Both the position numbers and the translations under genes were made by a program. Under the pieces are notes generated by a model, which made no database searches, was not told where the DNA came from, and was given only the letters and a program-made list of their open reading frames with translations. Positions 3,838-29,938 of a stretch of 64,000 nucleotides of DNA are shown here, piece after piece. How positions within the stretch are numbered: the first letter of the stretch is position 1; every line of letters starts with the position of its first letter. The stretch comes from Centipeda noxia ATCC 43541 (GTDB taxonomy: Bacteria; Bacillota; Negativicutes; Selenomonadales; Selenomonadaceae): contig NZ_GG749281.1 of assembly GCF_000160555.1 (NCBI RefSeq), positions 94,349-158,348 of the forward strand. The letters run 5' to 3'.

Positions 3838-4863
3838 TCAAAACCTCCGTATCACGCGATACTGCGTGTCACGCTGTGCCGGCTCTCTGCCTGCGCCGTG
3901 AATCAGATCGATCATCTTCTTGATCGACATATTATACCGCGTCCCCGCGGCACGCACGACATTCTCCTCGAGCATGATGCTCCCGAGATCATCTGCGCCG
4001 AAGCCGAGGGTCAGCTGACCGATGCGCTCGCCCTGCGTCACCCACGAGCCCTGGATGTGCGCAACATTGTCCATGTAGAGACGCGTAAGGGCAAGTGTTC
4101 GCATATAATCCCAGCTCGACGTCTTCTCTCCGCCGAGTGCGGTATTGCCCGGCTGGAACGTCCATGTGATGAACGCACGGAAGCCGCCCGTCTCCTCCTG
4201 CAGCCGGCGGATGTGCTCCATGTGCTCCACGCGCTCCGCCATCGTCTCGCCGAAGCCGATCACCATCGTCGCCGTCGACTTCATGCCGATCTTGTGCGCC
4301 GTCCGCATCACACGCAGCCAATCCTCGGTCATGATCTTCTTCGGTGCGATGAGCTTGCGTACGCGGTCGACGAGGATCTCCGCACCGCCGCCGGGGAGCG
4401 ACGAGAGCCCCGCATCCTGCAGCCGCCGCAGCGTATCCTCGACCGTAAGCCCCTCCTTTTGGGCGAAATACAGGATCTCCGTCGCCGTAAAGGAGTGGAT
4501 CACGATGGAGGGATAGCGGCTGCGGATGGCGCGCAGCATATCCTCGTAGTACGAGAGCGGCAGATCGGGATGGATGCCGCCCTGGATCATGACCTGCGTT
4601 CCTCCCGCTGCCGCCGTCTCGCCGACCTTCGCGAGAATCTCCTCCAGCGGCAGGAGATACGCATCCTCCGCATCCTGTTTCGTGTAGAATGCGCAAAAAC
4701 GGCACTCGTTCACGCAGATATTCGTGTAATTGATGTTGCGGTCAACGATGAACGTCACCGTATCGCCGAACCGCCGCCGCCGCTCCGCGTCCGCCGCGCG
4801 CCCGAGTTCGATCGGGTCGCCGTGCGTGAGGAGATCGGCAGCCTCCTGCTCCGTGAGTCTCAT
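3838..4863 (-). CDS. mqnC: Cyclic dehypoxanthinyl futalosine synthase
   Basis: This radical SAM enzyme cyclises dehypoxanthinyl futalosine in menaquinone synthesis. The CVNECRFC motif near residue 51 (CxxxCxxC) binds the iron-sulfur cluster. GGIHPDLPLSYYEDMLRAI and SLPGGGAEIL are typical MqnC segments. The 341-residue length is normal. It overlaps the upstream mqnE by 4 bp (ATGA) and is followed after 1 bp by the phosphorylase, so the three are one operon. Confidence 0.88.
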   Translation of the reverse strand: MRLTEQEAADLLTHGDPIELGRAADAERRRRFGDTVTFIVDRNINYTNICVNECRFCAFYTKQDAEDAYLLPLEEILAKVGETAAAGGTQVMIQGGIHPDLPLSYYEDMLRAIRSRYPSIVIHSFTATEILYFAQKEGLTVEDTLRRLQDAGLSSLPGGGAEILVDRVRKLIAPKKIMTEDWLRVMRTAHKIGMKSTATMVIGFGETMAERVEHMEHIRRLQEETGGFRAFITWTFQPGNTALGGEKTSSWDYMRTLALTRLYMDNVAHIQGSWVTQGERIGQLTLGFGADDLGSIMLEENVVRAAGTRYNMSIKKMIDLIHGAGREPAQRDTQYRVIRRF

Positions 4864-5957
4864 GCGCCCTCCCCTGCCGCGATCGGTCGATAAAACGTAT
4901 CGCGCTCCACGGGCTCATAGCCCGCCTCGCGGATCATCGCATCCAGTTCGCTCCGCGTGATGCCCGTCTGCGTCTGTGCCCCCGCCGCGTGGATGATCTT
5001 CTCCTCGCCGATCGTGCCGTCGAGATCGTCCGCACCGAAGCCGAGTGCCAGCTGCGCAATCGGCTGCGTCAGCATGACCCAGAACGCCTTGAAATGCGCC
5101 ACATTGTCGAGGACAAGGCGTGAGAGCGCGAGCATCTTCATATCCTCCCACGCGCCGACGCGCGCGAGTTTCCGCTCCGCACCGAGCACCGTATTCTCGG
5201 GGTGAAACGGAAAGAGCATAAACGCCTGAAAGCCGCCCGTCTCATCCTGCAGTTCGCGCAAGGCAAGCAGATGGTCGATGCGCTCCTCCACCATCTCGAT
5301 GTGTCCGTACATCATGGAGGCATTTGTACGGATGCCGAGCGCGTGTGCCGTACGCATACAGTCGAGCCACTCCGAACGCGTCGCCTTGTTCGGGCAGATG
5401 ACGGCGCGCACACGATCGGAGAGAATCTCCGCCCCGCCGCCGGGGAGGGATGAGAGCCCCGCCGCCTGCAAACGGCGCAGGATGTCGCGAACAGAAAGCC
5501 CCTCGCCTTTTGCAAAGTTCACAATCTCCACGGGCGTGAATGCCTTGATGTCCGCATGGGGAAGCGCCGCGCGCACCTGCCGCACCACGCCCTCGTAGTA
5601 GGAGAAGGGACGGTCGGGATGGAGCGCACTCACGATATGGATCTCCGTGAGGCGCGGCGTATTTTTCGCCGTCTCCAGCACGCGCGCCACATCGTCGGTC
5701 TCCATGATGTAGCCGCGCGCATCGCCGCGTTCCACCTGGAACGCGCAGAGCGGACAGTTCGCACTGCAGATGTTCGTGAGATTGATGTGACGGTTCACCG
5801 TATAGTAGACATTCTTCCCGCTCGCGCGCTCCTTCGCCGCACGCGCCCACGCACCGAGCGCGAGGAGGTCGTTGTCCTCATAGAGGAGGAGTGCATCCTC
5901 CTTCGTCAGCCGTGCCCCGCGCTCTGCGGCCGCGCGGGCATTCGTTCGATTGCTCAT
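4860..5957 (-). CDS. mqnE: Aminofutalosine synthase
   Basis: This 365-residue radical SAM enzyme joins the chorismate-derived enolpyruvyl group to SAM-derived adenosine, giving aminofutalosine. CSANCPLC (CxxxCxxC) is present, as are SSLPGGGAEIL, YGHIEMVEERIDHL and LGFGADDLDGT, which set MqnE apart from MqnC. It is first gene of a mqnE-mqnC-phosphorylase operon. A possible promoter lies near 5990 on the minus strand (TTGATA with a poor -10). A second MqnE-type gene lies at 7619. Confidence 0.85.
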   Translation of the reverse strand: MSNRTNARAAAERGARLTKEDALLLYEDNDLLALGAWARAAKERASGKNVYYTVNRHINLTNICSANCPLCAFQVERGDARGYIMETDDVARVLETAKNTPRLTEIHIVSALHPDRPFSYYEGVVRQVRAALPHADIKAFTPVEIVNFAKGEGLSVRDILRRLQAAGLSSLPGGGAEILSDRVRAVICPNKATRSEWLDCMRTAHALGIRTNASMMYGHIEMVEERIDHLLALRELQDETGGFQAFMLFPFHPENTVLGAERKLARVGAWEDMKMLALSRLVLDNVAHFKAFWVMLTQPIAQLALGFGADDLDGTIGEEKIIHAAGAQTQTGITRSELDAMIREAGYEPVERDTFYRPIAAGEGA

Positions 5958-7618: not shown

Positions 7619-8704
7619 TCAATACGTCTCAATGATATTAAAGTTCGAGTCGCACGCGGCAGGCGTGCGGCCAATCTCGCGAATGATGCGGATGATGTGG
7701 TCCTCGGAGAGAGCACGCGGGCTCTTTGCCCCCGCGTCATGAAGGATCGTCTCCTTGTGCACCGTGCCGTCAATGTCGTTCGCGCCGAAGCCGAGCGCGA
7801 TCTGCGCCACGGGCACGGTGAGCATGACCCAGTACGCCTTGATGTTGCGGAAATTATCGAGCATCAGCCGCGAAATCGCAATCGTCCGAAGATCGTCCCA
7901 CATCGACGTCTGCCGCACGGTCTGCCCGAGCTCCGTGTTCGACGGCAGGAATGGGAACGGGATAAACGTTTGAAAACCGCCCGTCTCATCCTGCAGATCG
8001 CGCAGTCGCATCATGTGCTCGACGCGCTCTTCCACCGTCTCGATGTGCCCGTAGAGCATGGACGCATTCGTCTTGATGCCGAGTTCATGCGCCGTACGCG
8101 CCACCATCAGCCACTCATCCGCCGTCGCCTTGTTCGGGCAGAGCTCGCCGCGCACGCGGTCAGAGAGGATCTCCGCGCCGCCGCCCGCGATCGACTGCAG
8201 CCCCGCCGCGCGCAGCCGCACGAGCACCTCGCGCACCGAGAGCCTCGACGTCTTTGCAAAATGCGTGATTTCAACGCCCGTGAACCCCTTCAGATAGAGC
8301 GAGGGAAACGCCTCATGCAGCGCCTTGAGGCGCATCAGATAGTCGTCGAATGTCCAGTCCGGATGCAGACCGCTCACAACGTGCAGTCCCGCCAGATGCG
8401 GGTCGCGCATCGCATCCGCCACATGCGCCACGGCCTCCTCCACGCTCATCTCGTACGCGCCCTTGTCCTCCGCGTCGCGCCCGAACGCACAGAACTTACA
8501 GTGCGCGAGACAGATGTTCGTGAGATTCACATGACAGTTCACGTTATAGTAGACGATATCGCCGCATTTTTTCTGCCGCACGCGGTCGGCAAGCGCGCCG
8601 ATCCACGCGATGTCATGACATGCAAAGAGCCGCACGCCGTCCTCATACGTCAGCCGTTCGCCGTGCGCGATCTTCTTCTCGATATCCATGTATTCATTGT
8701 GCAA
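7619..8704 (-). CDS. mqnE: Second aminofutalosine synthase-like radical SAM protein
   Basis: This 361-residue protein has CLAHCKFC (CxxxCxxC), GLHPDWTFDDYL, GGGAEILSDRVR, YGHIETVEERVEHM and FGANDIDGT, all features of MqnE rather than MqnC. It is clearly related to the MqnE at 4860 but far from identical. Either could be the main aminofutalosine synthase; the other may use a different enol ether or be redundant. The start is uncertain: ATG at 8704 has GGGAG 13 nt upstream, and ATG at 8689 has no clear site. An operator-like palindrome lies just upstream at 8738-8761. Confidence 0.82.
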   Translation of the reverse strand: MHNEYMDIEKKIAHGERLTYEDGVRLFACHDIAWIGALADRVRQKKCGDIVYYNVNCHVNLTNICLAHCKFCAFGRDAEDKGAYEMSVEEAVAHVADAMRDPHLAGLHVVSGLHPDWTFDDYLMRLKALHEAFPSLYLKGFTGVEITHFAKTSRLSVREVLVRLRAAGLQSIAGGGAEILSDRVRGELCPNKATADEWLMVARTAHELGIKTNASMLYGHIETVEERVEHMMRLRDLQDETGGFQTFIPFPFLPSNTELGQTVRQTSMWDDLRTIAISRLMLDNFRNIKAYWVMLTVPVAQIALGFGANDIDGTVHKETILHDAGAKSPRALSEDHIIRIIREIGRTPAACDSNFNIIETY

Positions 8705-8821: not shown

Positions 8822-8850
8822 TTGACAATTTTCTGGGATTTTACTATACT
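8822..8850 (+). promoter_or_regulatory. Promoter of the large noncoding RNA
   Basis: TTGACA (8822-8827), 17-bp spacer, TATACT (8845-8850). Near-consensus, with a start expected at about 8857. Confidence 0.82.
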
Positions 8851-8856
8851 AAAGAT

Positions 8857-9395
8857 AGTAAAGGAGAACTTCCAGGCAGCTTGATTCAGGACGGGTTGCC
8901 CTCGTGTGATACGTAAGCGCATGAGATGAGTTCTCCGGAGTTTCCACAGTGTTGACCGACGGTTGTTGGAGTGAGGGAGCACGGCAGCAGCTCCGCTGGC
9001 TGAGCGGAGGGAGCACAGCCGGAGTTCCCCGACGGACTGGGAGGAGATTCCGATGGGTCATTGAGTGGCCGCAGGGTTGTCCGCACAGGTGCACCAGGAC
9101 AGCGGTGCAGAGCGAAGGTGCGGCAGGAGGATGCGGCAGCCCGCGCGGGGCGGGTACAGGGATATGCGCGGCGCATGGCAGGAAGATCGTTCCCGCGAGT
9201 GGATTCGCGGTGCATGCGTCGGAGGCATGTCGAGGTAGTTTCTCAGCGTTTTGCCGGAAAGTTCCGCGCTGCATGCTAGCGGCAGCGCGGAACGAAGCAA
9301 CATTGGTTTGGATGCAAGAGAGTTACCTATCACTTCCCGTATTTTCCTCAAGACCGCCGACGGGTGACGAGAAAGCCCGCCGGCGGTTTTGTTTT
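8857..9395 (+). ncRNA. Large structured noncoding RNA, unassigned (about 540 nt)
   Basis: A strong promoter at 8822-8850 and an intrinsic terminator at 9353-9396 bracket about 540 nt with no convincing gene on either strand. Hairpins seen directly: GGAGAACT (8863-8870) with AGTTCTCC (8929-8936); CTCCGCT/AGCGGAG (8991-9009); TGTCC/GGACA (9078-9101); CCGCGA/TCGCGG (9193-9210); CATGC/GCATG (9213-9229); and a perfect 12-bp stem, 9261-9272 with 9282-9293. The RNA is purine- and GC-rich and repeats GGGAGCAC twice (8975 and 9009). I do not find the RNase P core, tmRNA ends, SRP loop or any riboswitch core I know. It could be a very large leader of the downstream oxidoreductase, but its length and terminator favour a free-standing RNA. 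Confidence 0.62.
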
Positions 9396-9396
9396 G
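9353..9396 (+). terminator. Terminator of the large noncoding RNA
   Basis: ACCGCCGACGGG pairs with CCCGCCGGCGGT (one bulged A), followed by TTTTGTTTTG. It ends 18 bp before the next gene. Confidence 0.85.
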
Positions 9397-9413
9397 TCCG
9401 GAAAGGAGTCTCT

Positions 9414-10010
9414 ATGAAAATCTCCGTCATCTTGGGGCATCCCTACAAGCACAGCCTCAACGCCGCCATCGCGGAAATTATTGTAAAAACACTGAAGTCA
9501 TCCGGCCATGATGTACGTTTCCACGATCTCTGCCGCGAGCATTTCGATCCCGCCATCCCAAAGGAGGAGCTCGTCAGCGGCACAACGCGTGATCCGCTCG
9601 TCCGTCTCCATCAGGAGGAGATTCGTTCGGCGGACGGCATCATCATCGTCCATCCGAACTGGTGGGGGCAGCCACCCGCCGTGCTCAAAGGCTGGGTTGA
9701 TCGGGTTCTGCGCGAGAATATCGCCTACACATTCCCCGCAGGCGACAGCGGCGGCGGTCTCCCCATCGGTCTGCTGCGCGCGAAGAGGGCGCTTGTCTTC
9801 AACACATCCAACACGTCCGCACAGCGGGAGGACGAGGTCTTCGGCGACCCGCTGCAGCGTCTTTGGCGCGACTGCATCTTCGACTTTTGCGGCGTAAAGG
9901 ACTTCGACCGTGTGATGTTCCGCATCGTCGCAGACAGCTCCGCCGACGAGAGGTCCGCGTGGCTGGAAGAAGCTGCAGACCGCGCGCGGCGCGCCTTCCC
10001 CTCTCCATGA
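9414..10010 (+). CDS. Flavodoxin-fold NAD(P)H-dependent oxidoreductase
   Basis: This 198-residue protein has the KefF/MdaB-type flavodoxin-like fold: GHPYKHSLNAAI at the N-terminus for FMN/FAD phosphate, then VHPNWWGQPPAVLKGWVDRV, the typical quinone reductase segment. It would reduce quinones or related electrophiles with NAD(P)H in the cytoplasm. AAAGGAG lies 6 nt before the ATG. It starts immediately after the terminator of the large noncoding RNA, so it may depend on read-through. Confidence 0.8.
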   Translation: MKISVILGHPYKHSLNAAIAEIIVKTLKSSGHDVRFHDLCREHFDPAIPKEELVSGTTRDPLVRLHQEEIRSADGIIIVHPNWWGQPPAVLKGWVDRVLRENIAYTFPAGDSGGGLPIGLLRAKRALVFNTSNTSAQREDEVFGDPLQRLWRDCIFDFCGVKDFDRVMFRIVADSSADERSAWLEEAADRARRAFPSP

Positions 10011-15689: not shown

Positions 15690-16594
15690 AATCCGCCCCC
15701 TTGCGGGGATGTGGTTTTGAAATGGCAAAGCCCGTTGATTTTGTACGCGGCCGATTGGAGTTTCCGTCCCCTTGCGGGGATGTGGTTTTGAAATACGCTC
15801 GCCAAGCACTACGGCGTACATCTCCCGATATTTCCGTCCCCTTGCGGGGATATGGTTTTGAAATGATATGACCTCTACTGGCGCGGCGGGAAGTGGGAGC
15901 AGTTTCCGTCCCCTTGCGGGGATGTAGTTTTGAAATGCTCGCCTTGAGTGCGTTAAGGCAGGTACAACGGGCGCAGAGTTTCCGTCCCCTTGCGGGGATG
16001 TAGTTTTGAAATGCTCGCCTTGAGTGCGTTAAGGCAGGTACAACGGGCGCAGAGTTTCCGTCCCCTTGCGGGGATGTAGTTTTGAAATACTTCTCTTCAG
16101 AATTGGATCTCGAAGAAGATGAATGGGTTTCCGTCCCCTTGCGGGGATATGGTTTTGAAATGCAAGGTGATTAGTCTCGTGAAATAGGAGGAAGAGTTTC
16201 CGTCCCCTTGCGGGGATGTGGTTTTGAAATATGCACAGCGCTATGCCAATATCCGCGCGGAGATGTATAGTTTCCGTCCCCTTGCGGGGATGTGGTTTTG
16301 AAATTGAGAAGGCGACCTTATGGTTGATGTTCCGTCCAGCACGTTTCCGTCCCCTTGCGGGGATGTGGTTTTGAAATCGGATATCGGATCGCAGGATAAC
16401 GCGTCTGCAAGTCAGTTTCCGTCCCCTTGCGGGGATGTGGTTTTGAAATTTTAACAACCTTCTCTCCGTCACCGCTACTGCTGGTGAATTTCCGTCCCCT
16501 TGCGGGGATGTGGTTTTGAAATTTGACGCGGAAGCCGAAGGCTACCTTGCACGCATCAAATTTCCGTCCCCTTGCGGGGATGTGGTTTTGAAAT
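15690..16594 (-). CRISPR. CRISPR array: 13 repeats, 12 spacers
   Basis: The repeats are about 35 nt (on the minus strand ATTTCAAAACC...GGGGACGGAAAC, with a CCCCGCAAGGGG stem). The GAAAC end and the degenerate repeat at 15690-15723 show that the array is read on the minus strand, with its leader at the high-coordinate end. Repeats begin at 15690, 15761, 15831, 15903, 15979, 16055, 16128, 16197, 16271, 16344, 16416, 16489 and 16561. Spacers are 35 to 42 nt. The spacers at 15937-15978 and 16013-16054 are identical, and their three flanking repeats share a GTAG variant, so one unit was duplicated. The repeats at 15831 and 16128 carry a TATGG variant. Confidence 0.97.
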
Positions 16595-16797
16595 TCCTTG
16601 CGTTGGGATGCCTTGTGCTGACTGCATGAAAAAATACTTTTGCGGTGCGAATGAGATTCCCCTCCTTTTCGCGGCAGCTCTTGTTCGAAAATTCTTTGCA
16701 GTCATTGCGGCTCTAAGTGCGGCGCAGATTCTACGTGCAGTATAGCATAATGCTCCATGACGCACAATCCCGCCGGCACAAAGAGCAGACATCTTCC
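16595..16797 (-). promoter_or_regulatory. CRISPR leader with probable pre-crRNA promoter
   Basis: This 203-nt gap between csm6 and the array's newest end has no gene. On the minus strand TTGTGC (16767-16762), 17 bp and TATACT (16744-16739) would start transcription about 140 nt before the first repeat. Confidence 0.6.
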
Positions 16798-29818: not shown

Positions 29819-29829
29819 CTGCTGTGCGC

Positions 29830-29922
29830 ATGTTTATCCCTACGTTGGCATTACCCAAATCAGGTTCCGGGTCGGGACGCATCGTCCCCTCTCAGCCGCC
29901 GTATGGCAGCTCCCCCTATTCG
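29830..29922 (-). promoter_or_regulatory. TPP riboswitch (THI box)
   Basis: Read on the minus strand it carries the conserved parts in order: GGGGGAGC, GGCTGAGA, GACCC, GAACCTGAT, and GGGTAATGCCAACGTAGGGA. These are the pyrimidine- and phosphate-binding arms. Together with the terminator downstream it should stop transcription of cytX-thiM-thiD-thiW when TPP is bound. Confidence 0.96.
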
Positions 29923-29938
29923 GTTGTAAATTGTCTAT

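Follow-up and report, generated by a model that had tools for sequence, protein, structure and literature searches.

Comparative analysis of a 64,000-nt stretch of the Centipeda noxia ATCC 43541 genome (hereafter the window) points to a structured, autonomously transcribed RNA that is built round a minigene of three codons, a setting not described in the literature that we searched. Sequence comparison shows that the RNA carries its own transcription signals, folds in a conserved manner, is related to shorter RNAs in other genera of Selenomonadaceae and is under selection for the start and the early stop of its minigene, but not for a peptide. About even is the chance we give to the functional reading developed below, of an autonomous regulatory RNA whose start-stop minigene would capture initiating ribosomes whilst the structured body scaffolds or gates it.

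A single-copy unit conserved across the genus

The features of the locus and the gene that follows it are, in window coordinates:

8822..8850 (+): sigma-70 type promoter, TTGACA-17-TATACT, 11 of 12 consensus bases, kept in 14/14 homologues
8857..9395 (+): predicted transcript of ~540 nt; the start was deduced from the -10 box
8862..8867 (+): 5' arm of the long-range closing helix (helix 1, nearly invariant), partner 9343-9348
9039..9044 (+): GGGAGG, which includes the minigene's Shine-Dalgarno (SD) sequence (GGAGG, 9040-9044) and has a potential pairing partner in CUUCCC at 9333-9338
9053..9064 (+): minigene ORF1, AUG GGU CAU UGA (Met-Gly-His-stop), in 14/14 species of the genus
9261..9293 (+): 12-bp hairpin, 9261-9272/9282-9293, its loop with an invariant GCUAGC (9275-9280)
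9333..9348 (+): pyrimidine-rich CUUCCCGUAUUUUCCU, which in the consensus fold pairs with the SD region and with the 5' end
9352..9395 (+): intrinsic terminator; its loop UGACGAGAAAG (9365-9375) is near-identical in short relatives from other genera
9414..10010 (+): flavodoxin-like / FMN-reductase family gene (Pfam PF02525, PF03358)

A first-pass annotation made from the letters alone had proposed a near-consensus promoter, an intrinsic terminator and a perfect 12-bp hairpin, and all three were confirmed at the positions listed. The TTGACA box is without any variation across the 14 homologues. The terminator has a stem of 14 bp (9352-9365/9375-9388) followed by TTTTGTTTT, and its stem is 98.5% paired over the 14 species, with compensatory changes (helix 22); an automatic terminator scan, which allows a loop of 8 nt, did not pick it up, probably because the loop here is 9 nt. 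Promoter, ~540-nt stretch and terminator are conserved together, as a unit present once in each of the 14 species of the genus: 12 of the other 13 match over the full length at 70-81% DNA identity, and the thirteenth matches in two pieces. Very little variation is seen in the promoter, in several internal blocks and in the terminator. DNA similarity did not reveal the locus in other genera, and nothing resembling the locus was found in phage and plasmid collections. The public records matched by the minigene pattern come from oral Selenomonas and Centipeda (S. infelix, S. flueggei, S. artemidis, C. periodontii and others).

Conserved protein coding was looked for on both strands and rejected: most insertions and deletions between the genus homologues have lengths that three does not divide, and no long frame is open in all of them, so that there is no long conserved reading frame, and no Pfam family matches within the RNA stretch. 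The earlier statement that the stretch is without coding sequence therefore holds for long frames, but not for the SD-led AUG GGU CAU UGA, which is kept throughout the genus. Upstream of the RNA, and divergent from it, lie two radical-SAM genes of the CofH/MqnC family (4860-5957 and 7619-8704, minus strand), possibly belonging to the menaquinone (futalosine) pathway.

Comparison with known RNA classes

At gathering thresholds, Rfam finds one tRNA and one TPP riboswitch (29820-29926, minus strand) in the whole window, which also holds a CRISPR array at 15760-16596 whose repeats, spaced by ~73 nt, match CRISPR-DR57 just under threshold. At the RNA locus itself, the best match up to E = 10 is a chance microRNA hit (E = 8.3), and no Rfam model, raiA included, matched the short relatives that were tested. 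The proposal of a structured RNA that has a promoter and terminator of its own and belongs to no Rfam family is thus borne out, by these searches together with the covariation described below.

Individual classes were considered and rejected. OLE RNA (RF01071) resembles the Selenomonas RNA in its length of about 600 nt, complex structure, conserved blocks and Bacillota-type host, but cmscan gave no OLE match at the locus to E = 10, nor in the genus homologues to E = 5, and the Selenomonas RNA, unlike OLE, has short relatives; we also know of no minigene core in OLE. The raiA motif, or ModT RNA (RF03072), is likewise standalone, structured and trans-acting and, at ~200 nt, of a size with the short relatives, but its model matches neither these nor the window's own genome (E<=10). 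RNase P and 6S RNA were rejected as identities, the genome's own copies lying elsewhere (G000:C18 and G000:C19, respectively).

A conserved fold supported by compensatory changes

The plus strand of the stretch has a folding energy of -247.9 kcal/mol, whereas dinucleotide shuffles reach -211.7+-6.1 (z = -6.0; 0/100 as good), in keeping with its earlier description as a GC-rich structured element of ~540 nt; the opposite strand is likewise stable (z = -4.2). Firmer support comes from covariation. The RNAalifold consensus contains 136 pairs in a global architecture that joins the 5' end to a segment close to the 3' end and pairs GGGAGG (9039) with CUUCCC (9333), and 95.0% of the cells of the genus alignment are paired in it. 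Changes on both sides are seen at 34 pairs, compared with 14.7+-2.5 in shuffles, none of 500 of which reaches 34, and the covariation score is 0.193 compared with 0.130, a signal that disappears once the partners are slid against each other. Compensatory base changes of this kind, the check that had been proposed for homologues, mark the locus as a probable structured RNA gene.

Most of the covariation support derives from helices 3, 8, 9, 15, 16, 20 and 22, with five pairs changed on both sides in helix 20, the 12-bp hairpin. In the long-range helices 1 and 10 all pairs are invariant or nearly so, and covariation cannot test these two helices because there is too little variation. Helix 10 is the one that pairs the SD of the minigene in the consensus fold; in predicted ensembles this SD is only about half accessible, with a mean unpaired probability of 0.23-0.82 across the genus. 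Both observations weigh against ribosome capture, and the predicted accessibilities speak neither for nor against a gating of the SD by helix 10.

An enlarged member of a family of short RNAs

A covariance model of the 3' domain gave weak matches in other genera of Selenomonadaceae, which led to a set of short relatives, mostly of ~190-240 nt and each with its own promoter. Type A relatives share with the window RNA, exactly or nearly, the blocks GGGAGGAGAUUCCGAUGGG as well as the terminator loop GGUGACGAGAAAGCC; type B relatives have a different terminator, but contain GCUAGC, a motif that the window RNA likewise keeps invariant. A model of the short-RNA core, searched against 380 genomes of the class, matched 61 of them in 13 genera, all within Selenomonadaceae but one, and that exception is without the motif. 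Among the R1 and R3 matches, six were set aside as false positives, three for want of the motif (L032, L111, L126) and three that lie inside a gene (L113, L127, L129). The family as a whole spreads over about a dozen genera of Selenomonadaceae, and the window RNA is best interpreted as its enlarged, genus-specific form. The first-pass annotation had regarded the locus as isolated, which is right in so far as it is usually independent of the downstream gene; it does, however, belong to this family.

A three-codon minigene as the likely core

Common to all RNAs of the family are a GGAGG, a spacer whose last bases are UCC(A/G), the codons AUG GGN and a stop no more than a few codons on. In the window this reads GGAGG-8 nt-AUG GGU CAU UGA (9040-9064), and the same arrangement in the RNAs of other genera contradicts the earlier claim that no coding sequence with a ribosome site is present. 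With its strong SD, AUG and early stop, the element is by its sequence a minigene, and it is the most widely conserved part of the RNA and probably the functional core of the family; a plainly noncoding reading is not supported.

The early stop was examined in 72 distinct module contexts, none of them found through a stop requirement, although the species are related and the counts are not independent. An in-frame stop falls at codon 3, 4 or 6 in 71/72 (codon 4 in 58, codon 3 in 12, codon 6 in one), compared with 4/72 and 9/72 with a stop in the same interval of the +1 and +2 frames. In the sole exception, L071, an 8-nt duplication recreates AUG GGC AGG UAA downstream. All three stops are used (TAA 40, TGA 16, TAG 15); codon 2 is glycine (GGN) throughout and occurs with each of the four third bases; and codon 3 is free, with CCG, CAU, AGG, CGG, CAG, UGG and others. 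As the stops are kept whilst the glycine codons vary synonymously and the third codon varies freely, selection would appear to act on starting and promptly stopping translation, and not on the peptide. The conservation of AUGGGC in the short forms can be explained in part by an AUGGGC/GCCCAU hairpin.

Within the genus the motif occurs once per genome in 14/14 species. Some other RNAs of the family carry two or three minigenes (L105, L108-L110); in L105 (G034), minigenes encoding MGR, MGT and MGR lie between one promoter and one terminator (about 1120-1680).

Beyond the family, the stop-containing pattern is found at 56 places across all GTDB species, 44 of them in Selenomonadaceae and the remainder mostly in Clostridia, where several sites are in leaders of secreted-protein genes. 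When the motif was sought without the stop requirement in 11 Clostridia genomes, which had themselves been picked by the stop-requiring search, 14/14 matches stop by codon 4 and a reversed control gave none; two of these matches, absent from the first search, stop by codon 4 too. The only Rfam match at the Clostridia minigene loci is Clostridiales-1, far from the minigene. The SD-AUG-GGN-NNN-stop arrangement was observed in Lachnospiraceae and other Clostridia at L133, L134, L135, L140, L141, L149, L152, L156, L158, L160 and L178, of which L149, L156 and L158 have it about 55-60 nt upstream of secreted-protein genes. A single viral contig, L189 (IMGVR_UViG_2861347227_000005), carries the motif as MGK-stop.

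Relationship to downstream genes

One must consider whether the RNA is simply the leader of the gene that follows. On such a reading, read-through into the downstream gene would be controlled by translating the minigene together with a second micro-ORF that ends at the terminator. A comparable layout is known from fthC and similar uORF motifs, which also combine an SD-led short uORF with an intrinsic terminator (PMC11109978). Those motifs are tied to one downstream gene, whereas the neighbours of the Selenomonas-family RNA vary, and the downstream genes indeed differ from genus to genus. In favour of a leader, a second ORF ends exactly at the terminator base in 16/20 short type A RNAs, compared with 4.3 expected from shuffles. 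These ORFs have about 7-14 codons, use TAA, TAG and TGA and encode no conserved peptide; examples are L035, L037, L072 and other type A loci. Type A RNAs, moreover, often lie ~40 nt upstream of a gene that we take, from its sequence rather than through a search, to encode a ferredoxin-type protein (4Fe-4S motif), and the gap yielded no promoter. The flavodoxin-like gene of the window begins only ~20 nt past the terminator, which leaves no room for a promoter.

Against this stand several observations on the long form and on type B. Spacing as close as about 20 nt is peculiar to the window among members of the genus; in most of the other species the next gene encodes an OPT transporter, further off and with its own promoter. 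Type B precedes what is presumably guaB, again named from its sequence, and the guaB promoter lies after the type B terminator. For these reasons the long RNA generally stands as a unit of its own. The frame of the long form that corresponds to the second ORF, MQESYLSLPVFSS, lacks its stop in several species; in the window there is no stop at the terminator base, and an open frame (8949-10010, plus strand) consequently runs from inside the RNA through the terminator and, in frame, into the flavodoxin-like gene. A cis-acting leader is therefore improbable as an account of the family; such a role is possible for some type A copies, but not as the rule for the genus form.

Proposed mechanism and its alternatives

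A tiny three-codon gene behind a strong ribosome-binding site suggests that the RNA works by catching ribosomes. Ribosomes would initiate on the minigene through its strong SD, stop after two or three codons, and then either re-initiate or release a short peptidyl-tRNA, with the structured body scaffolding the minigene or gating access to it. Capture itself would be the job of the RNA, as a brake on or sensor of translation initiation, or as a means of protecting or regulating the RNA; the outcome may thus be a translational brake, an initiation sensor, or stability for an RNA with some other task. From E. coli it is known that strong-SD minigenes cause repeated initiation, can set peptidyl-tRNA free and can protect or silence the mRNA (PMC8708949), and early NGG codons favour drop-off (PMC12204400). 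NGG stands at codon 3 in 17/58 modules, about a third.

The closest known likenesses are the minigenes or mini-ORFs in leaders (axe-txe mg2, the EHEC LEE operons, B. subtilis ycbK; PMC8708949), which share the strong SD, the few codons and the stop, and in which the peptide sequence is unimportant and the effect is exerted by ribosome occupancy, re-initiation or drop-off. Those minigenes, however, belong to protein operons, either within them or in their leaders, whereas the Selenomonas minigene is the conserved heart of an autonomous, terminated and highly structured RNA and, in some relatives, is repeated two or three times. The further proposal that the minigene acts in trans, so that the RNA would represent a new class sensing or braking initiation through Met-Gly-X-stop ribosome cycling, is a tentative one that we consider doubtful; the 540-nt ornate form in oral Selenomonas, the single or tandem minigenes of its relatives and the motif in Clostridia leaders would then be its several guises.

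It is worth noting that the 540-nt body goes far beyond what a minigene needs, and because of this the essential function could lie elsewhere in the RNA. The body might be a large RNA of the OLE or raiA type, a trans-acting RNP scaffold or ribozyme in which ribosome occupancy of the minigene does no more than stabilise the transcript. Its size and complexity, the long invariant stretches and the covariation all suit such an interpretation, as does an autonomous unit with varying neighbours; yet the long body is confined to one genus, the parts common to the family are the minigene, the terminator loop and short motifs, and no large class in Rfam matches, so that we regard it as rather unlikely. 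Far less plausible is a CsrB-like sponge that titrates CsrA through GGA motifs. Like the CsrB/RsmZ sRNAs, the window RNA has an autonomous promoter and terminator and is rich in GGA (21 compared with 14.2+-2.9; A(N)GGA 12 compared with 6.5+-2.5), and CsrA is encoded in the same genome and nearly universally in Selenomonadaceae. The excess is mild, however, at about 2 sd in the long form and with none clear in the short forms, the motifs being counted irrespective of loop position. No CsrA gene was matched in four genomes that carry the RNA: G034 and the Mitsuokella-group genomes G022, G080 and G081, which are near-complete (at least 99%). The sponge is disfavoured because of these four genomes and of the minigene, whose conserved reading frame, with its kept stops and synonymous glycine codons, it leaves unexplained. 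An antisense sRNA, which would bind the Shine-Dalgarno sequences of target mRNAs through its CUUCCC/UUUUCC segment, is at least as improbable: this segment hardly varies within the genus and could pair with GGAGG, but it is internally paired in the consensus fold and is not conserved in such a form in the short relatives.

Implications

Neither Rfam nor the literature searched, supplements aside, holds an RNA class built round a three-codon frame or a report of the Selenomonas RNA. The minigene offers a concrete explanation, open to testing, of why a large RNA should be so extremely conserved. Provided that ribosomes do cycle on the minigene, this RNA would serve as a natural means of sensing or limiting the initiation of translation and, should the reading prove true, as an example of a short element that has grown into an ornate RNA within one genus.
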